From Actinotalea lenta (lineage in GTDB: Bacteria; Actinomycetota; Actinomycetes; Actinomycetales; Cellulomonadaceae), in contig NZ_JAUQYP010000002.1 of NCBI RefSeq assembly GCF_030586465.1, positions 128,279-192,278 of the forward strand: a stretch of 64,000 nt of DNA. Reading direction: 5' to 3'. Below are positions 16,155 to 43,329 of the stretch, piece by piece (positions within the stretch are counted from its first letter, which is position 1; each line of letters starts with the position of its first letter). The notes beneath the pieces are model-generated. The model made no database searches. It was given only the letters and a program-made list of their open reading frames with translations, and had not been told where the DNA came from. Position numbers and translations under genes: made by a program.

Positions 16155-18419
16155 GTGTCCGACGCGGGGGGTGGTTCGGTGGATCGGCGGCACGCGACGG
16201 CGCGGGAGTCGGACGATCAGGGTCGGTCCGAGCAGGGCAGCGGGCCCGCGCGAGGGGCGGAGGCGCCCGCGGCGCTCGGCGCGTCGGCATGGGACGAGCT
16301 CGCGGAGATGGAGCAACGCTGGGCGGCGCTGCTCGACTTCTCCCCGCACCCGGTCATGGTGGTGCGGGTGCCGGACGGGACCGTGCTGCTGGCGAACCCG
16401 GAGGCTCAGCGCTCCTTCGGGGCGTCGCAGGACCCCGTCGGTCGGCGGCTCGCCTCCCTGCTCGGCATCGAGTCCGCGCCCTCGCTCCAGGCCCGCCTCG
16501 AGGCGGTCGACGAGTCGGGCGAGGCCGAGGTCGTCCTCAAGCAGGCGGCCTGGCCGGGGCGGGGGAGCGTCCCGGTGGAGCTGCGCCTCGCCTCGGTCCG
16601 CTGGCACGGCGAACCGGCGGTGCTGGCCAAGGTCCGCGACCTGTCCGACCGGATGACCGTCGAGTACCAGGCCGAGCAGCTCCTGGCCGTCGAGCAGAAG
16701 TTCCGTCAGGCGTTCGAGGGGGCGGCGATCGGGATGGCGCTCGTGGCGGTGGGCCCGGTGCCCGCGGCCGGCGCGTTCCTCGAGGTCAACGAGGCTCTGT
16801 GCACCCTGCTCGGTCGCGACGCCGATGACCTCGTGGCCTGCACGTTCGCAGAGGTGTCCCACCCGGACGACGCCGGGATGGGCTACGAGGTGCTCCGGAG
16901 CGTGAGTGAGGGTGAGCTGGCGCGCGGGGTCGTGGAGCAGCGCTACCTGAGGCCCGACGGTCGCGTGGTCTGGGCGCGGGTGACGACCTCCGCCGTCCGG
17001 GGCAGCGACGGACAGGTCAGGCACCTGGTCTCCCAGGCGGAGGACATCACCGCACGCAAGGACGCCGAGGCACAGCTCGCGCACCAGGCGCTGCACGACT
17101 CGCTGACCTCGCTGCCCAACCGCGCCCACCTCATGGAGCACCTCCAGTCGGCCATCGCGCGTGCGACCCGCACCGCCCGTGTCGTCGGTGTGCTCCACCT
17201 GGACATCGACGACTTCAAGGACGTCAACGACTCGCTCGGGCACACGGCGGGGGACGCGGTGCTCGTCGAGATCGCCCGGCGGGTCACCGACCTGCTCCGC
17301 GACGGCGACGTGGCCGCCCGCCTCGGCGGCGACGAGCTCGTCGTCGTGTGCGATGACCTGACGGACCCGTCCGAGATCCAGGTGCTCGCCCAGCGTGTCG
17401 TGGACGCGGTCACCAGACCGATCGAGGCCGCCGGTCATGTGCTGCACCTCACGGCGAGCGTGGGCGTCGCCACGGGAGGGGTCGGGGCGACGCCCGTCCG
17501 GTTGGTCCGGGACGCCGACGCGGCGATGTACCGCGCCAAGCGGAGCGGCAAGGCACGTTACGAGATGGGCGACGACTCGCTCGCGGCGCTGGCCATCCGC
17601 CAGATCGAGATCTACGACGGCCTGCACCGCGCCCTGGAGCGCCACGAGCTACGGCTCGTCTACCAGCCGATCCTCGACCTGTCCGAGGACCGCGTCACCG
17701 GCGTCGAGGCCCTGCTGCGATGGGACCACCCCGAGCGCGGGGTGGTCGGGCCGGCCGAGTTCATCGACGTCGCCGAGAGCCGCGAGCTCATCGTGCCGAT
17801 CGGGCGCTGGGTCCTGCACGAGGCGGTCCGGCAGGCCACCCTCTGGTTCAGTGAGTTCGGTGCCGACGCCCCCAGGATGTGGGTGAACATCTCCGACCGT
17901 CAGGTCGGCCGGCACGACCTCGCGGGCCTGGTCCGCGGTGCGCTGGACGACACGGGACTTCCGGTCGAGCTGCTCGGCCTCGAGCTCACGGAGCGGCAGG
18001 TGGTGCGCACCGGGCACTCGGTCCGCTCGGACCTCGCGGCGATCCGCGGCCTCGGCGTGGGGCTGGCGATCGACGACTTCGGGACGGGTCGGACCGGGAT
18101 CGACTACCTGCGCGAGCTTCCGGTCTCGCACCTCAAGATCGACCGGACGTTCGTCTCGGGCCTGGGCCAGGACCGGACCAACACGGCGCTCACCGACGCG
18201 ATCATCACGCTCGGTCGCGGGCTGGGTCTGACGGTCACCGCCGAGGGCGTGGAGACCTCCGACCAGCTCGGGCGGCTGCGCCAGGCGGGCTGCCACCGGG
18301 TGCAGGGCTACCTGCTCGGCCGCCCGCAGCCGCCCTCGGCCGTCGCGGCGACGTTCGGTGCTGGGTTCGGGGCGCCCACGGGCGCCGGCCCCGAGCAGGA
18401 GCAGCCGCCGGGCCCCTGA
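16155..18419 (+). CDS. PAS-GGDEF-EAL cyclic-di-GMP signalling protein
   Basis: A soluble 754-residue protein. Two PAS sensor domains (about 45-165 and 175-300) are followed by a GGDEF diguanylate cyclase domain whose active-site loop reads GGDEL at about 391-395. An EAL phosphodiesterase domain starts with EALLRW at about 518. The EAL residues look intact (ELTERQ, IDDFGTG, KIDRTF, AEGVET), so it can probably degrade cyclic-di-GMP. The Phe-to-Leu change in GGDEF may lower or keep cyclase activity. No membrane segment. The start is GTG 16155; GTG 16179 behind GGGGGG is an alternative. Divergent from the MogA-MoaC gene. Confidence 0.93.
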   Translation: MSDAGGGSVDRRHATARESDDQGRSEQGSGPARGAEAPAALGASAWDELAEMEQRWAALLDFSPHPVMVVRVPDGTVLLANPEAQRSFGASQDPVGRRLASLLGIESAPSLQARLEAVDESGEAEVVLKQAAWPGRGSVPVELRLASVRWHGEPAVLAKVRDLSDRMTVEYQAEQLLAVEQKFRQAFEGAAIGMALVAVGPVPAAGAFLEVNEALCTLLGRDADDLVACTFAEVSHPDDAGMGYEVLRSVSEGELARGVVEQRYLRPDGRVVWARVTTSAVRGSDGQVRHLVSQAEDITARKDAEAQLAHQALHDSLTSLPNRAHLMEHLQSAIARATRTARVVGVLHLDIDDFKDVNDSLGHTAGDAVLVEIARRVTDLLRDGDVAARLGGDELVVVCDDLTDPSEIQVLAQRVVDAVTRPIEAAGHVLHLTASVGVATGGVGATPVRLVRDADAAMYRAKRSGKARYEMGDDSLAALAIRQIEIYDGLHRALERHELRLVYQPILDLSEDRVTGVEALLRWDHPERGVVGPAEFIDVAESRELIVPIGRWVLHEAVRQATLWFSEFGADAPRMWVNISDRQVGRHDLAGLVRGALDDTGLPVELLGLELTERQVVRTGHSVRSDLAAIRGLGVGLAIDDFGTGRTGIDYLRELPVSHLKIDRTFVSGLGQDRTNTALTDAIITLGRGLGLTVTAEGVETSDQLGRLRQAGCHRVQGYLLGRPQPPSAVAATFGAGFGAPTGAGPEQEQPPGP

Positions 18420-36477: not shown

Positions 36478-38664
36478 ATGCGCACCGACGAGGTCGTCGT
36501 CCGGGAGACCTTCCACCGGGTGGCGGCCGGCGTGGTCGCCATCAACCTGGTGGTGTCCGCCGTGGACGTGGTGGCGGGACCTGGCGTGTACCGCCCCGGG
36601 TTCGCCCCGGCCGTGCTCGCCGTGCTGGCCCTGCTCGTGGTGTCGACGGTGCACCGTTCCTTCGCCGGGCGCGGCGCCCAGGAACCGCTGCGCGGAGCGG
36701 TGGCTGTGGCCGTACTCGCCCTGGCGCTGCACCCGTGGGCCGTGCTGCGTCCTGTCCCGTACCCCCCGTTGCTGCACGCGCTCGGTGCGGTGATCACGAT
36801 CTCGGCGATCGCGTCCGTGCGGCTCTCGCTCGCGGTCGTCCCGGCCTTCGCCCTCGCGGTCGCAGTCCTTCGGGCGCCGTTCCTGGGGTCGTTCCAGGCG
36901 GCTGCGGAGGCCACCCTGCTGGCGCTCGACGGCCTGGTCGTGACCGCCACGGTGCACGTGCTCGCCCGGGCTGCCCGGTCGGTGCACGAGGCCGTGGGAC
37001 ATGCGTGGGAGCTCGCCGAGGAACGCACCCGGGTCTGGCAGCGCACCCGGACCCGCGAGCAGTGGGACGGCCTGGTGCACGACAAGGTGCTGGGCGCGCT
37101 CGACCTGGCCTCTCGCTCGGTGCACGAGCGCGGTCCGGCGGGCGCCGCCCGCGCGCTCGCGGCCGAGGCGCTGTCCGCGCTGCGCGGCGAAGGCCTGCCT
37201 TCCTCGCCGGCGGTGGAGCGCTGGGCGGCGCACGCGGGTCGGCTGGGGCTGGACGCCCGGTTCCGGGTGCACGGCCGACTCGAGAACGCCGAGGTGCGGG
37301 ACGCCTTCGTCGGGGCCGTCAACGAGGTGCTGTCCAACGTCGAGCGGCACTCCGGGCAGCGGTCGGTCACGGTGTCCGGCTTCCTGCGGGCCGGGAACGC
37401 GCGGATCGTCGTCACGGACCCGGGACGGGGCTTCGACCCGGCATCGGTCGGTCCCGGGGTGGGGCTGCGCACGTCCGTGGCGGCGCGCATCCGGGCGGTG
37501 GGCGGCGACGTCGAGGTGCGGTCCGGGCCCGGTGACGGGACTGCTGTCGTGCTGACCTGGAAGCCGCTCGAGGCTCCCGCCCGGTCGTCCGCGCTCCAGT
37601 GGCAGCTGCGGAGCTTCACCCCGCTCGTCGCCTTGGCGTGGGCCGTCCTCGCGGTCGTGCTGGCGGTCAGCCGCGGTCGATGGGCCACGACGCCCTCGCC
37701 CGTCGCCGCCGCCGCGGTGATCCTCGGCCTCGTCGCCCTCACCGCGGGCGCGACCGCGCTGCCACCCACCCGGCGGCACGGCGCCCTCGTCGCAGCCGGC
37801 GCCCTGGTGGTGGCCCTGACCGGCGCGCTCGACACCGCGCTCGCTGCACCCACGGACTGGAGGTACTGGTACGTCAGCGCCATGACGCCGGCCCTGGCCG
37901 GTGTGGCGTACCGGTTCGGCCACTGGCTGGGACTGTGGACGGCCACGGCGCTGACCGCGGCCGTGATGCTCGTGGACGGTGTGGGGGGACGCCCCTTCTG
38001 GGACGTCCTGACGGGGCCGGCCCCCGTGCTGCTCGCCGTGGTCGTCGCGTCCGAGCTGATCCGCGCGGCGCTCTCCGACGCGTGGACGACGGTCGAGGAA
38101 GCCGGCCGGCAGGCGGCCGAGCTGCGCCTCGCCCTCGCCGCCGAGGCGGAGCGCGAGAGCGAGGCGGAGTCGCGGATCGCGGCGCTCGAGGGCACCGTCG
38201 CTCCGGCCCTCGTCCGCATCGTCTCCGATGAGCCCCTGTCCGCCGCGGACGCCGAGGAGCTCGAGCTGCTGGAGTCCGCCGTCCGTGACCAGCTCGTGGC
38301 CGCCAGGTTGTTCGACGAGGAGCTGGCCGCCGCGGTGCGACGGGCGAGGGGGCGCGGGGTGGACGTCGACGTGGTCGCCGCGGCCGCGCCCGGCAGGCAT
38401 GCGTCGGGCGACTGCGCGGGCTGCCGGCCCGCAGTGCGAGCCCTCCTCGACCACGTGCCCGGCGGGACGCGGGTGCGGATCTCCTGGGCGGGGCCCGACG
38501 TGACGGCAGCGACCGTGACCGCTGTCGGCGCGGGCCTGGCCCCGGCTGCTGCGGCGGTTCGCGCGGCGGGAGCCGGGCAGGGGGGTGCGCTGCAGGTGAG
38601 TGAGGACGAGGACGCCGTGCTCGTCACGTTCCTGCCGCGGGACGTCTCCGAGGAGCCGGGCTGA
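36478..38664 (+). CDS. Membrane sensor kinase with a second, degenerate kinase-like half
   Basis: A 728-residue protein with two similar halves. Half one has about five membrane helices (20-155), a coiled coil, a HisKA_3 helix with the phospho-acceptor His201 (GLVHDKVLGALDLA), and an HATPase domain with N-box NEVLSNVERHS (about 282) and DPGRGFDP. Half two has about five more helices (about 380-530), a coiled coil, and a 130-residue C-terminal region. That region keeps the shape of a dimerisation and ATPase module (VAPALVRIVSDEPLSAADAE, then ARRARGRGVDVDV-like sequence) but lacks an obvious His or N-box. It should phosphorylate the LuxR-type regulator encoded 5 nt upstream. The stimulus is unknown. 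Confidence 0.87.
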   Translation: MRTDEVVVRETFHRVAAGVVAINLVVSAVDVVAGPGVYRPGFAPAVLAVLALLVVSTVHRSFAGRGAQEPLRGAVAVAVLALALHPWAVLRPVPYPPLLHALGAVITISAIASVRLSLAVVPAFALAVAVLRAPFLGSFQAAAEATLLALDGLVVTATVHVLARAARSVHEAVGHAWELAEERTRVWQRTRTREQWDGLVHDKVLGALDLASRSVHERGPAGAARALAAEALSALRGEGLPSSPAVERWAAHAGRLGLDARFRVHGRLENAEVRDAFVGAVNEVLSNVERHSGQRSVTVSGFLRAGNARIVVTDPGRGFDPASVGPGVGLRTSVAARIRAVGGDVEVRSGPGDGTAVVLTWKPLEAPARSSALQWQLRSFTPLVALAWAVLAVVLAVSRGRWATTPSPVAAAAVILGLVALTAGATALPPTRRHGALVAAGALVVALTGALDTALAAPTDWRYWYVSAMTPALAGVAYRFGHWLGLWTATALTAAVMLVDGVGGRPFWDVLTGPAPVLLAVVVASELIRAALSDAWTTVEEAGRQAAELRLALAAEAERESEAESRIAALEGTVAPALVRIVSDEPLSAADAEELELLESAVRDQLVAARLFDEELAAAVRRARGRGVDVDVVAAAAPGRHASGDCAGCRPAVRALLDHVPGGTRVRISWAGPDVTAATVTAVGAGLAPAAAAVRAAGAGQGGALQVSEDEDAVLVTFLPRDVSEEPG

Positions 38665-38680
38665 GAGCCGGGGCGGTTCC

Positions 38681-38696
38681 CCCGCCACGTGGCGGG
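38681..38696. terminator. Palindromic hairpin after the sensor kinase
   Basis: Perfect 16-bp palindrome CCCGCCAC/GTGGCGGG, 16 nt after the kinase stop. A likely end of the regulator-kinase operon, though the loop must open from within the stem. Confidence 0.45.
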
Positions 38697-38728
38697 CGGC
38701 GCCCGGCGTGGTGCGCAACGATGGTGCG

Positions 38729-39682
38729 ATGTCCACCTCACGCCTGGGGATCGGCCTGGCCGCCGTCGGCCGGCCCGCCTACATCACCGGCCACCGGTCC
38801 GCCGACCTCGGCGACGGTCGTACGCCCGAGCAGCTCGAGGCCCGCACGCACGCCCTGCTCGACGCCGCGTACACGTCAGGGATCCGGTACGTGGACGTGG
38901 CTCGGTCCTACGGGCGTGCGGAGGAGTTCGCGGCCCACTGGCTCGACGAGCGTGGGCTCTCGGACGTCGAGGTCGGCTCCAAGTGGGGATACCGGTACGT
39001 CGGCGACTGGGACATGGCGGCCACGGTGCACGAGGTCAAGGACCACTCACTGGCCGCGTTCCGCGAGCAGTGGCCGGCGACCCGTGCACTGCTGGGCCAG
39101 CACCTGGGCAGGTACCTGGTCCACTCGGCGACCCTGGACACGGGTGTGCTCGCGGACGCCGCCCTGCACCGCGAGCTGGCGGCCCTGCGCGAGCGGGGTG
39201 TTCGGGTCGGCATCTCCACGTCCGGCCCCCGGCAGGCAGACGCGGTTCGGGCGGCGCTGGACGTCATGGTGGACGGCGAACCGCTGTTCACCGCGTTCCA
39301 GGTGACCTGGAACCTGCTGGAGCCGAGCGCCGGACGCGCGCTCGCCGAGGCGGCCGACCGGGGAGCCCAGGTCGTGGTCAAGGAGTCGGTCGCCAACGGA
39401 CGGCTCGCCCCGGGGGGCTCCGACGGTACGGCTGGGGTCGACCTCGTCGCCGCGCTCGCGGCCGCCCAGGGCCTGAGCCCCGACCAGCTGGCCGTCGCCG
39501 CGGCGCTGGCGCAGCCGTGGGCCTGGCGTGTGCTGTCCGGCGCGGCCACGCCCGCGCAGCTCGCGTCGCACGTCGCGGCGGCGGACGTCGCCCTCGACCC
39601 CGGCCTGCTCGAGGCGGCCATGGCTGCGGCCGAGGACTCGAGCGCCTACTGGGCGGCGCGCTCGGCCCGTCCCTGGACCTGA
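38729..39682 (+). CDS. Aldo/keto reductase
   Basis: A 317-residue aldo/keto reductase of the actinobacterial group that begins GIGLAAVGRPAYI. The tetrad is mostly visible: Asp and Tyr in YVDVARSYG, Lys in VGSKWGY; the His position reads LVHSATLD. A C-terminal cofactor region resembles VVKESVANGRL and LSGAATPAQL. Cytoplasmic, NAD(P)H-dependent; substrate unknown. It converges with the SipW peptidase gene. ATG 38729 is chosen because it begins the first beta strand; AACGAT lies 6 nt before it. Confidence 0.9.
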   Translation: MSTSRLGIGLAAVGRPAYITGHRSADLGDGRTPEQLEARTHALLDAAYTSGIRYVDVARSYGRAEEFAAHWLDERGLSDVEVGSKWGYRYVGDWDMAATVHEVKDHSLAAFREQWPATRALLGQHLGRYLVHSATLDTGVLADAALHRELAALRERGVRVGISTSGPRQADAVRAALDVMVDGEPLFTAFQVTWNLLEPSAGRALAEAADRGAQVVVKESVANGRLAPGGSDGTAGVDLVAALAAAQGLSPDQLAVAAALAQPWAWRVLSGAATPAQLASHVAAADVALDPGLLEAAMAAAEDSSAYWAARSARPWT

Positions 39683-39722
39683 GCACGCCACCGCGGCGCG
39701 CCACCGCACGTCAGGACGCGGC

Positions 39723-40268
39723 TCAGTGGGCCGGAGCGCTCACGGTCGCCGACGCGGTGCCGGGTGCGGGTCCGTGGGTCCGGTCGCGCCGCGCCGCCGG
39801 CGGCCTGCCCGGCACGTCGGGCGGGAAGAACAGGCCCCACAGCAGCCAGAGCCCGACGAACGCGCTCATCAACGATGCGGCACCCGTGGGCTGCCGGAAG
39901 AAGACCAGCACGTATCCCAGGGCGCCGGTGCCCGCGACGACGCGGCCGAGCACGGCGTGGTGCGGGATCGTCCACGCGTCGGGCTCGGGGTTGGCGTCGC
40001 CCTTCGTGGAGTAGCCCGCGCCGCTGACCGCGTGCACGCGGTGCGTCACCATGCCACCGCCGGCGTGGAACGTGATCACGTCGCCGACCTCCGCATCGTC
40101 GGCAGGACCGTCGACCACGAGGGCTCCCGTCGGGTACGTCGGCGCCATGGACCCGGTGCGGACCGCGTAGAGCCGGTACCCCTCGTGCCAGGCCACCGCG
40201 GCCCCCACTGCCAGGCCCACGACGAGGACGACCAGTGCGCTCACGAGCACACGGCGAACGCGCGTCAT
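39723..40268 (-). CDS. SipW-type signal peptidase I
   Basis: A 181-residue membrane serine protease of the ER/archaeal-like (S26B, SipW) class. Helix 1 (about 7-27) precedes the catalytic Ser40 in RTGSMAPTYP and the catalytic His76 in VTHRVHAV; these replace the Ser-Lys pair of ordinary LepB. GDVITFHAGGGM lies between. A second membrane segment (about 130-150) and a Pro/Arg-rich cytoplasmic tail follow. It should cut the signal peptide of the TasA/camelysin-like protein encoded just upstream. ATG 40268 lies after GGGAGG; a longer frame upstream is not needed. A strong hairpin separates the two genes. Confidence 0.9.
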   Translation of the reverse strand: MTRVRRVLVSALVVLVVGLAVGAAVAWHEGYRLYAVRTGSMAPTYPTGALVVDGPADDAEVGDVITFHAGGGMVTHRVHAVSGAGYSTKGDANPEPDAWTIPHHAVLGRVVAGTGALGYVLVFFRQPTGAASLMSAFVGLWLLWGLFFPPDVPGRPPAARRDRTHGPAPGTASATVSAPAH

Positions 40269-40290
40269 GCCCGCCTCCCGAGGTGTGGTG

Positions 40291-40320
40291 CGGCGGGGTC
40301 CTGCGGGCAGGACCCCGCCG
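40291..40320 (-). terminator. Strong hairpin between the TasA-like and SipW genes
   Basis: CGGCGGGGTCCTG (40291-40303) pairs perfectly with CAGGACCCCGCCG (40308-40320) around the loop CGGG. It sits 11 nt after the exported-protein gene and 22 nt before the peptidase gene, so partial termination would make the substrate more abundant than its peptidase. Confidence 0.75.
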
Positions 40321-40330
40321 CGACGGCCGA

Positions 40331-41020
40331 TCAGTAGTTCTGCGCGTCGGGCCGCACGCCCGCCTGGGTGGCGACGATCTTGTACGGCACGGTCCACTCG
40401 ACCTGGTTCTGCTGGGTCTGCCGACCGGTGAGACCGAACGTGACGTGCACGGTGGCGCCCTGGCCCGTGGTCAGGTTGGAGGACAGCTTGATCGCCGTGG
40501 GCACGCCGCAGTACGGCGGCGTGTCGCTCGGGCTGGTGGCCTGCTGGGCGCTGCCGCCGTGGCCGTTCGCGTCGACAGGACACCCGCCCGACTCGCCGGC
40601 GGGCGCCGAGGCCAGGTTGTAGGACTGGAAGAGCGGCCCGTCGCTGCCGACCGAGACCGCGAAGTGGCCGTAGCGCCCGAGGCCGCCGTCAGGGACCAGC
40701 GCGCCCTCGTCCTTGGGCCCGGTGAAGCCCTGGTAGCCGGCGGTCTCGGGGTCGAAGACGAGCCAGACGTCTGCCGGTCCTGTGGTGTCGACGTGGTAGG
40801 TGACGTCCTGGGTCTTGTCCGTGCCGGGCACCAGGTCGGCGAACGACAGGTTCGTCTCTGTCGTGCTCAGGGTCAGGTGACCCGAGCTCGAGCTGATGGT
40901 GCCGTCGGCGCTGTCCGTGAAGTAGGCGCCGGTCCCGGAGACCGCGAAACCCACCAGAGCGGCCGTGAGGCCGGCCGTTCCGACGAACCCGCCAAGTCGT
41001 AGTGCCGTGAACGTGCTCAC
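40331..41020 (-). CDS. TasA/camelysin-like exported protein with SipW-type signal peptide
   Basis: A 229-residue secreted protein. The N-terminus (about 8-34) is a SipW-dependent signal peptide with the typical cut-site region GTGAYFTDSADG. The mature part is a beta-rich jelly-roll-like domain as in TasA/camelysin (HLTLSTTETNLSFADLVPG, QDVTYHVDTTGPADVWLVFD). One Cys pair (GGCPVDANG and PYCGVPTA) could form a disulfide. It may be a surface or fibre protein. GTG 41020 is chosen for its GGAGGG site; a longer upstream frame is spurious. The next gene downstream is its probable signal peptidase. Confidence 0.85.
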   Translation of the reverse strand: MSTFTALRLGGFVGTAGLTAALVGFAVSGTGAYFTDSADGTISSSSGHLTLSTTETNLSFADLVPGTDKTQDVTYHVDTTGPADVWLVFDPETAGYQGFTGPKDEGALVPDGGLGRYGHFAVSVGSDGPLFQSYNLASAPAGESGGCPVDANGHGGSAQQATSPSDTPPYCGVPTAIKLSSNLTTGQGATVHVTFGLTGRQTQQNQVEWTVPYKIVATQAGVRPDAQNY

Positions 41021-41226
41021 AAGTGTCCCTCCGCGATCCGCATGGGAGCGTCGGTCTCGCCACTGGCTCGTCCCCCGGGATCGGCGACCGGACTCGGCGG
41101 GGGCTTCGTCGCCTCGCTCACGGCCCGTCGGCCGGGCCGCGTTCCGCACCGTATTGGTGGGCGTTTCGACCCGGATAGCACCCATTTGTGGGACATGGGC
41201 CCGCCTGGGTGCCGTGTGGGCAGGAG

Positions 41227-41274
41227 CACGGCACGCGGGGGCGCTCAGGGGGCGTGGCACCCCCGCGTGCCGTG
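41227..41274 (-). terminator. Terminator of the Tm-1/PEP-hydrolase operon
   Basis: CACGGCACGCGGGGG (41227-41241) pairs perfectly with CCCCCGCGTGCCGTG (41260-41274), a 15-bp stem with an 18-nt loop, 2 nt after the stop of the PEP-hydrolase-like gene. This insulates the TasA-like gene further along the same strand. Confidence 0.85.
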
Positions 41275-41276
41275 GG

Positions 41277-42098
41277 TCAGAACGTGATCGCCTTGAAGTC
41301 CTCGGTCTGCTTGCGGATGGCGACCTCGGTGGGCAACCGCTCGATCGACGAGGCGCCGTAGAACCCGACGATCCCCTCCGTGTGGTCGAGGATGTACTGC
41401 GCGTCGGGCGGCTCGGCGATCGGGCCGCCGTGGCACAGGCACAGGATGTCGGGGTTGACCTTCTTCGCCGCGTCGGCGAGCTCCTGGACCTTGGCCGCGG
41501 CCTGCTCGAGGGTGAGCGCGGTCTGGGCACCGATGGTCCCGGCCGTGGTCAGGCCCATGTGCGGCACGAGGATGTCGGCCCCGGCCCTGGCCAGCTCGGC
41601 GGCCTGCTCGGCGTCGAACGCGTACGGCGTGGTGAGCAGGTCCATCTCGTGGGCCATCCGGATCATGTCGATCTCGGGGCCGAAGCCCATCCCGGTCTCC
41701 TCCAGGTTGGCCCGGAAGACCCCGTCGATCAGGCCCACGGTCGGGAAGTTCTGCACGCCCGCGAACCCGGCCTCCTTGACTTCCCGCAGGAACACGGGCA
41801 TCAGCCGGAACGGGTCGGTGCCGTTCACACCCGCGAGCACCGGGGTGTGCTGGACGACCGGCAGCACCTCCCGCGCCATGTCCATGACGATCGCGTTCGC
41901 ATCGCCGTAGGCGAGCAGCCCGGACAGCGACCCGCGGCCGGCCATCCGGAACCGCCCCGAGTTGTAGATCACCAGCAGGTCGATGCCACCGGCCTCGGCC
42001 GACTTCGCGGTGATCCCGGTGCCCGCCCCGCCGCCGATGATCGGCTTGCCGGCCGCCACCTGGGCGCGGAACCGCGCGAGGATCTCTTCCCTGCTCAT
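41277..42098 (-). CDS. Phosphoenolpyruvate-hydrolase-family TIM-barrel protein
   Basis: A 273-residue TIM-barrel protein of the PEP-hydrolase-like family (TIM_br_sig_trns). Signatures are [20 protein letters not shown] near the N-terminus, [19 protein letters not shown], and [18 protein letters not shown] near 225. Members commonly occur beside or fused to Tm-1-like proteins, as here; the physiological reaction is not settled. Its ATG directly follows the TGA of the Tm-1-like gene, so they form one operon. A strong terminator follows. Confidence 0.9.
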
Positions 42099-42099
42099 G

Positions 42100-43329
42100 T
42101 CAGCTCTCCTTCTGGATGTGGTGGTCGAGGGCCTCGGCCATCGCTGCCCCGAAGCCCTGGTCGTTGATCGCCTGGTCCAGCTCGTGCACCGTCACGGCGC
42201 TGCCGGCCAGGCCTTCGCGCAGCGCGGCGAACAGCGCCGCATCCGCGTCGGCGTCCCGGAACGGGGCGCCGTCCACGTCGATCGCGCTCACCCCGCGCAG
42301 CGGCACGAACAGCTCCGTCGGACCCGTCGCGGCGGCGAGCTTGCGCGCGATGCGGCGTCCCAGCTCGGCCATCTCCTGCGTCGTGGTGCGCATCAGCGTG
42401 ACCGTGGGGTTGTGCACGAACAGGTTCCGGCTCTCGAACTGCGGCGGCACGGTGTCGCGCGGGCCGAAGTTCACCATGTCGAGCGCACCGAGACTCACCA
42501 CCTGGGGCAGGCCGAGCGCCCCGGCGATCTCCAGCCGGTCGGGCCCGGCGGACAGCACGCCGCCCACCAGGTCGTCGCACAGCTCCGTGGTGGTCAGGTC
42601 GCAGACGCCGGCGAGCATGCCGGAGGCGACCAGCTTCTCCATCGCGCGTCCGCCGGTGCCCGTGGCGTGGAACACCAGGACCTCGTAGCCCAGGTCGGTG
42701 AGGCGCTCGCGGGCCTCGTTGGCGGCCGGCGTGGTGACGCCGAACATCGTCAGGCCGATGAGGGGCTTGTGCTCGGCAGCGCCGCCCGCCGCGGCGCGGG
42801 CCTCGTAGGCCTTGGCCATCCCGGCGGCGGCCGCCGCCGCGTTGCCCAGCACGGCCTCGGAGACGGAGTTGATGCCGGCCACGTCGACCACGGAGTACAT
42901 CAGCGTCGCGTCGACCTCGCCGACGTACGGCTTGACGTCCCCGCTGGCCATCGTGGAGACCAGCACCTTGGGCACGCCGATCGGCAGGGCCTGCATCGCG
43001 GGCGCGGCGACGGACGAGCCGCCCGACCCGCCCACGGCGAGCATGCCGTGCACGCGGCCCTCGTCGAACAGGCGGCGGATCACCACTGCGGCGCCCGAGC
43101 CCATCACCGCCATCATCTCGCCGCGGTCGCGCCGCTCCCGCAGGGCGCCGGCGTCCGCGCCCGCGGCTGCGATGACCGCGTCGGAGGAGACGTCCGCCAT
43201 GGGGCTCGTGGAGAACGAGCCGACGTCCACGGCCAGCACGTCCACGCCGTTCTCGACGAGCCGGTCCTTGAGCCAGCCGTACTCGACACCCTTGGTGTCG
43301 AGCGTGCCGAGGAGAGCCACTGTCGCCAT
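42100..43329 (-). CDS. Tm-1-like ATP-binding protein (UPF0261)
   Basis: A 409-residue UPF0261/Tm-1-like protein. The N-terminal domain (1-180) begins [20 protein letters not shown] and holds the nucleotide-binding [11 protein letters not shown]. The C-terminal domain includes [19 protein letters not shown] and [14 protein letters not shown]. It is named after the tomato Tm-1 inhibitor of tobamovirus RNA replication; the bacterial role is unknown. The frame is open upstream, but this ATG starts the conserved strand. First gene of a two-gene operon with the PEP-hydrolase-like protein, divergent from a MocR regulator that may control it. Confidence 0.9.

Follow-up and report, generated by a model that had tools for sequence, protein, structure and literature searches.

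On the minus strand of the 64,000-nucleotide stretch of Actinotalea lenta DNA analysed here (the window), a unit of about 1.4 kb is read by us, with a probability of roughly 0.6, as a self-contained operon for the export of a matrix fibre, in which c-di-GMP would control translation and a leaky hairpin would lie between the two genes. In reading order, the minus strand carries an 18-bp hairpin, a riboswitch, the gene of an exported substrate, an inter-gene hairpin and the gene of a signal peptidase. According to the proposed mechanism, c-di-GMP would bind the class-II riboswitch in the leader and alter the access to the ribosome site located behind the aptamer, setting in this way the translation of a TasA-like subunit. 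The subunit would cross the membrane by Sec, and its SipW-type signal peptide would be cut by a dedicated Ser-His peptidase encoded next; the N-terminal strand freed by the cut could then allow the subunits to assemble into a polymer on the cell surface. The inter-gene hairpin would leakily end most transcripts after the substrate, and the peptidase, a catalyst, would be made from the minority of read-through transcripts and thereby kept below the substrate.

Both protein genes of the original prediction are confirmed. The substrate gene (41020..40331, minus strand) has a GTG start and encodes a protein of 229 aa with a SipW-type signal peptide, and the peptidase gene (40268..39723, minus strand) has an ATG start and encodes 181 aa. 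The upstream gene, which belongs to the PEP_hydrolase family (42098-41277), is unrelated to the unit, and just 3' of its stop lies the 18-bp hairpin (41274..41227, minus strand), predicted to be a terminator-like unit boundary; the next gene downstream of the peptidase, of the aldo/keto reductase family, is convergent and ends at 39682. No TapA-like gene was found in the unit on inspection of the neighbouring genes. The pair had been described as being accompanied by nothing else, which is correct for protein genes, but the leader also contains a c-di-GMP-II-GAG riboswitch that had been missed. As a whole, the exported TasA-like substrate with a Ser-His peptidase and the conserved hairpin stood up to the analysis, apart from this omission and from an overstated link to TasA and camelysin.

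The riboswitch aptamer (RF03169; 41125..41040, minus strand) covers model positions 1-86, its full length, on the same strand as the substrate and 19 nt ahead of its GTG. At 55.9 bits (E 2.4e-8 for the 64-kb window) it exceeds the gathering score of 40 and is the sole match above any Rfam gathering score in the window; one copy was found in the genome, that of this leader, and none of 14 control genomes had a match. A ribosome-site-like GGAGGG, recognized by reading the sequence, is placed at 41032..41027 (minus strand), 8 nt past the aptamer. In the six loci measured, this one included, the spacer between aptamer and start codon is 17-22 nt; a leader terminator would not fit into it, which suggests control at the level of translation. 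With the outer stem imposed on the folded leader, the ribosome site became clearly more open at this locus, from 0.17 to 0.51; in the other five leaders its openness rose slightly in two (+0.02 and +0.06) and fell by 0.09-0.11 in three. This folding includes neither pseudoknot nor ligand, and imposing the stem costs 6-24 kcal/mol of stability relative to free folding. Since no common sign of the switch across the six leaders emerges from folding without the pseudoknot, we infer the sign from biology, by which high c-di-GMP most probably turns the switch ON. The genome contains 27 GGDEF and 19 EAL matches, so c-di-GMP is very likely made; among these matches is a GGDEF-EAL protein encoded at 17088-18326 of the window (plus strand), about 22 kb from the operon.

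The c-di-GMP-II-GAG RNA was reportedly first described by Weinberg et al. in 2017. In the literature searched, one paper names the RF03169 family, a single time, in a section on riboswitch identification (PMC9943018). A literature search, limited for subscription papers, found no link of RF03169 to TasA-like/SipW-type pairs among the papers listed and no paper containing both ‘TasA-like’ and ‘Cellulomonas.’ In the sampled genomes, RF03169 matches occur in 11 of 150 for the family, 18 of 396 for the order (15 above the cut-off) and 61 of 394 for the class (57 above the cut-off). The DNA was read for a subset of these matches amounting to 60 loci (13 + 29 + 18, with three of the last 18 below the cut-off), and the order riboswitch, substrate, peptidase was found in seven, namely the present one and those designated G053, G063, G013, G047, G089 and G405. 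A riboswitch specific for TasA-like pairs is therefore rejected, as only these 7 of the 60 loci precede such a pair. At two further loci (L102 and L135) the protein encoded behind the riboswitch is exported and its signal is SipW-like, and no peptidase was seen within 1.5 kb. The remaining loci, judged by eye on crude ORF lists, include many exported proteins, some glycosyltransferases and several genes of unclear type; the exported proteins and glycosyltransferases, as putative targets, would fit a surface or matrix regulon. In other families of the order, RF03169 lies ahead of genes resembling family-2 glycosyltransferases, again by eye (L133, L137, L139, L140, L141 and L142), which suggests a possible c-di-GMP control of surface polysaccharide in those lineages. 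Weak matches (34-36 bits, below the cut-off) precede genes for collagen-like repeat proteins, where the frame is readable, at L143, L144 and L145, and contig 32 of the bin G022 (L002, L012 and L013) carries three high-scoring copies in about 4 kb, each before a different exported-looking protein.

The substrate had been called TasA/camelysin-like, and it stays under the curated cut-off in each family tested: it scores 14.7 bits against 22.5 for camelysin (PF12389) and 12.3 against 450 for TasA (NF046066), and TIGR04088 gives no match for it and none above cut-off in its genome. At E up to 1, PF12389 matches seven of the eight aligned proteins, this one included (best E 1e-4). The motif GAYFTD around the expected cut at A32/Y33 is kept in all eight rows of the alignment and fits the pattern A-(Y/F/W)-F-x-D that marks the mature N-terminus behind a SipW-type signal peptide. 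The further feature suggested for the substrate, a pair of cysteines, is real, with C147 present in 8/8 and C171 in 7/8 of the aligned proteins. Within the family, 7 of the 150 genomes searched, its own included, have a homologue of the substrate, and a search of the phylum with alignment A2 matched 4 of 396 genomes, again with its own among them and the other three weak.

A comparison of the family profile with the PDB returned the TasA fibre 8aur as the sole hit at E up to 1 (E 0.43), and in the alignment FTDS, beginning at F34, is paired with FNDI of TasA, at the N-terminus of the solved chain. An AlphaFold2 model of the substrate, built on eight sequences (pTM 0.70, mean pLDDT 66, 76 residues under 50), also ranks 8aur first in Foldseek, at E 3.8e-3, probability 0.93 and TM-score 0.34, with no match at E 0.001 or less. 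In VIA-align 2 the same fibre comes first (Z 6.2, rmsd 4.1, 133 aligned) and CUB domains are tied at Z 5.7; in our judgement, the CUB matches would reflect a shared beta-sandwich topology. Other fibre subunits appear among the structure matches, that is, the archaeal bundling pilus 7ueg and the Pap, type 1 and CS20 pilins. The profile and fold lines are each weak; taken with a signal peptide of the SipW type and a peptidase encoded next to it, they make a TasA-like substrate likely, on a modest fold match. The protein might instead be another small exported surface protein, an adhesin or camelysin-like, and not a fibre subunit, with the same logic of export and control. Scores below the TasA and camelysin cut-offs, a weak structural match with CUB domains tied and a unit without a TapA-like gene speak for this; nevertheless, the first place of the TasA fibre in two aligners, its being the sole PDB profile hit and the presence of donor-strand subunits among the matches lead us to consider it rather unlikely.

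The second gene had been predicted to encode a Ser-His signal peptidase; this, and its assignment to the SipW type (S26B-like), is borne out by a TIGR02228 score of 77.4 bits, above the cut-off of 51.85, and by the alignment, in which the Ser (GSM) and the His (THR or VHR) that replace the Ser-Lys dyad are invariant in 11/11 peptidases. These eleven are the ones caught by the motif, a filter that missed the other peptidases of the genome and, among the first 13 pair loci, the peptidases of G131 and Leekyejoonella. The score against the Bacillus SipW equivalog NF046067 is 56 bits, below the cut-off of 190, which indicates a SipW-type peptidase and not Bacillus SipW itself, and PF10502 is likewise below cut-off (18.9 against 22.9 bits). 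The peptidase is probably dedicated to its neighbour; the genome also contains further S26 genes, namely a second TIGR02228 match above cut-off (58.7 bits) and three PF10502 matches above cut-off (147, 76.3 and 28.1 bits), so that, by gene content, processing of the substrate by general peptidases is possible. A second Ser-His peptidase gene (L069:8778-9368) is flanked by small exported proteins that share a GGTIQAG...DCQ motif, in a region (L069:8315-11904) that corresponds to about 1168315-1171904 of contig C1 of the same genome. A 16-bp hairpin is located at the start of this gene (L069:8797-8831); whether it falls within the coding sequence or ahead of it depends on which start codon is used.

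Between the substrate and the peptidase genes lies a perfect, GC-rich hairpin (40321..40290, minus strand), placed as predicted and slightly longer than the 13 bp proposed: 15 nt are fully complementary, with 2 nt between the arms (40290-40304 and 40307-40321), and the folded form has 14 bp and a 4-nt loop. The stem begins at the tenth nucleotide past the substrate stop (9 nt between) and ends 21 nt ahead of the peptidase ATG, in front of which a ribosome-site-like GGGAGG can be read at 40279..40274 (minus strand). No U tract follows the stem, the next 10 nt containing one T, and no canonical terminator-like site was found in 37000-43000, where the GC-rich stem is present and the U tract is not.

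The presence of the hairpin in relatives was assessed by a hairpin score: the 120 nt that follow each substrate stop were searched for near-perfect stems, and the best of these was scored. A score of at least 33 is reached in 13 of the 14 substrate-peptidase pairs (12 of 13 without the window) and of at least 39 in 11 of the 14. Twelve of the first 13 pair loci are at or above 33, the remaining one being Nakamurella lactea with 19.5, and the fourteenth pair, G405, which belongs to another family of the order and was found through the riboswitch, scores 39. The stems start 4-50 nt past the stop and differ in sequence between loci. At each of the 12 positive loci the observed score is reached by 0-2 of 300 dinucleotide shuffles (2/300 at the present locus), at Nakamurella lactea by 102 of 300, and for the G405 hairpin by 0 of 300 mononucleotide shuffles. 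Among more distant peptidase loci of the family, 5 of 22 reach 33, over a longer searched stretch (30 loci were read, of which seven were pair loci already counted and one was without the motif). The proportion in the pairs, set against these 5 of 22, indicates that the hairpin is more than chance and goes with the pair more than with such peptidases generally; the distant loci give no support to the idea that it is a common feature of all SipW-type loci.

Base rates of hairpins were obtained in the same genome from the window and 400 kb, comprising 287 gene ends, with crude gene calls (300 genes in 464 kb, both studied genes missed) and with hairpins in convergent gaps liable to be counted from both sides. 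On this scale, a score of at least 33 is found in 8 of the 40 gaps between co-directional genes (60-200 nt) and in 13 of the 30 ends of convergent gaps (30-200 nt), and one of at least 39 in 5 of the 40 and 9 of the 30, respectively. The mean number of T in the 10 nt after the hairpin is 1.6 in 15 convergent and 0.85 in 13 co-directional cases and 1.31 in 13 pair loci, against one T at the present locus and about 1.4 expected by composition. The stem under study is therefore like the other gene-end hairpins of this genome, that is, long, GC-rich, soon after the stop codon and T-poor. The hairpin could also be a by-product of the high GC content, as the frequency in co-directional gaps might suggest. 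The z-score for the folding of a 106-nt segment surrounding the stem, with 6 of 200 shuffles folding as well, points in the same direction, being only -1.88 because the DNA is very GC-rich, and is for this reason weak as proof of the stem. In view of the shuffles at the 12 positive loci and of the hairpin recurring in 13 of 14 pairs, however, an origin from base composition appears very improbable.

Terminators whose U tract is weak or missing have been reported from Streptomyces, typically with 3-4 U in 10, and termination is stronger where the U tract is present (PMC12207403); for GC-rich genomes, I-shaped terminators have been considered as well (PMC8914203). These reports make a U-less stem a plausible leaky terminator. 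The main rival to it is a stabiliser of the 3' end: an RNase would cleave between the genes, the stem would protect the 3' end of the substrate mRNA and the peptidase half would decay, giving the same ratio with no termination. Such protection would suit a long and stable stem so close to the stop and free of a U tract, but the genome's other gene-end hairpins are alike and also T-poor, and we regard it as unlikely, if a serious alternative. Another explanation is that the hairpin is a full terminator and the peptidase has a promoter of its own, hence with no ratio control by read-through. The stretch between stem and peptidase start offers more room for a promoter in some relatives (about 96 nt in G089, 46 nt in G047 and 26 nt in G405), but the 21 nt of the present locus make a separate promoter there unlikely, and G063 has 17 nt. 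Moreover, no sigma-70-like site was found in 37000-43000, a weak test in this phylum, and a promoter between the genes seems improbable. Because of the short distance from stem to ATG and of the likeness to the other gene-end hairpins of the genome, we take a putative control of the peptidase-to-substrate ratio to be the interpretation that makes most sense for the hairpin.

Riboswitch and hairpin are distributed differently over the pairs. The riboswitch is ahead of 7 of 14 distinct pairs, and of 5 of 12 among those found by substrate homology, from which the pairs of G089 and G405, found through the riboswitch, are left out. Five of the seven family homologues, with identity of at least 52%, have it, and the other two (39 and 32%) do not. 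The pair is present in records of Pengzhenrongella frigida, Nakamurella lactea, Flexivirga endophytica and Leekyejoonella antrihumi, as well as in bins labelled Actinomycetes, Pseudonocardiales and Acidimicrobiaceae; two of these seven records, Pengzhenrongella frigida and the Actinomycetes bin, carry the riboswitch. Nakamurella lactea (L108), in which the pair is present and hairpin and riboswitch are both absent, is a natural control for both elements.

In Bacillus, matrix control runs through protein regulators, and in the B. subtilis operon the peptidase gene is located between tapA and tasA, so the gene order differs from the one described here. Like the tapA-sipW-tasA operon of B. subtilis (PMC9674648), the unit would combine a subunit bearing a SipW-type signal peptide with a dedicated membrane peptidase in the same operon; TasA subunits assemble by an N-terminal donor strand, according to the same source. 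Unlike that operon, the present unit is devoid of a TapA-like gene and has a c-di-GMP riboswitch preceding the substrate; its protein is below the TasA cut-off. The nearest published parallel found is sipW-bsaA of Clostridium perfringens, which encodes a signal peptidase and a polymer-forming matrix protein and has a predicted terminator with read-through directly after the matrix gene (PMC7395162). There the peptidase gene is upstream of the matrix gene, whereas here it is downstream, and the terminator of C. perfringens therefore does not lower the peptidase relative to the substrate; control there is by temperature and the BsaRS two-component system, unlike the riboswitch of the present unit. 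In Bacillus cereus, TasA/CalY and CapP form a comparable system, with TasA/CalY-type filaments that are sortase-independent, and comprise two subunits and a chaperone-like protein, compared with one subunit here (PMC13082335).

Operons of tasA-sipW type are known; what is new is an actinobacterial TasA-like protein under a c-di-GMP riboswitch and a hairpin that is a conserved part of the module, a layout that was not met for TasA/SipW systems in the literature searched, limited for subscription papers. We would give even odds to the broader view of a conserved actinobacterial fibre module with two RNA elements in series, in which the riboswitch would decide when the fibre is made and the hairpin how much peptidase is made per subunit. 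To our knowledge, the targets of c-di-GMP in many Actinobacteria and the makeup of their biofilm matrix are poorly known, and this locus names, in about 1.4 kb that could be transferred to a laboratory host, a candidate matrix protein, its peptidase and the second messenger expected to control that protein. If this holds, c-di-GMP would be connected to a TasA-like fibre directly through RNA, and the hairpin, kept in form and not in sequence, would be a natural test case for leaky, U-less termination as the setter of a ratio.
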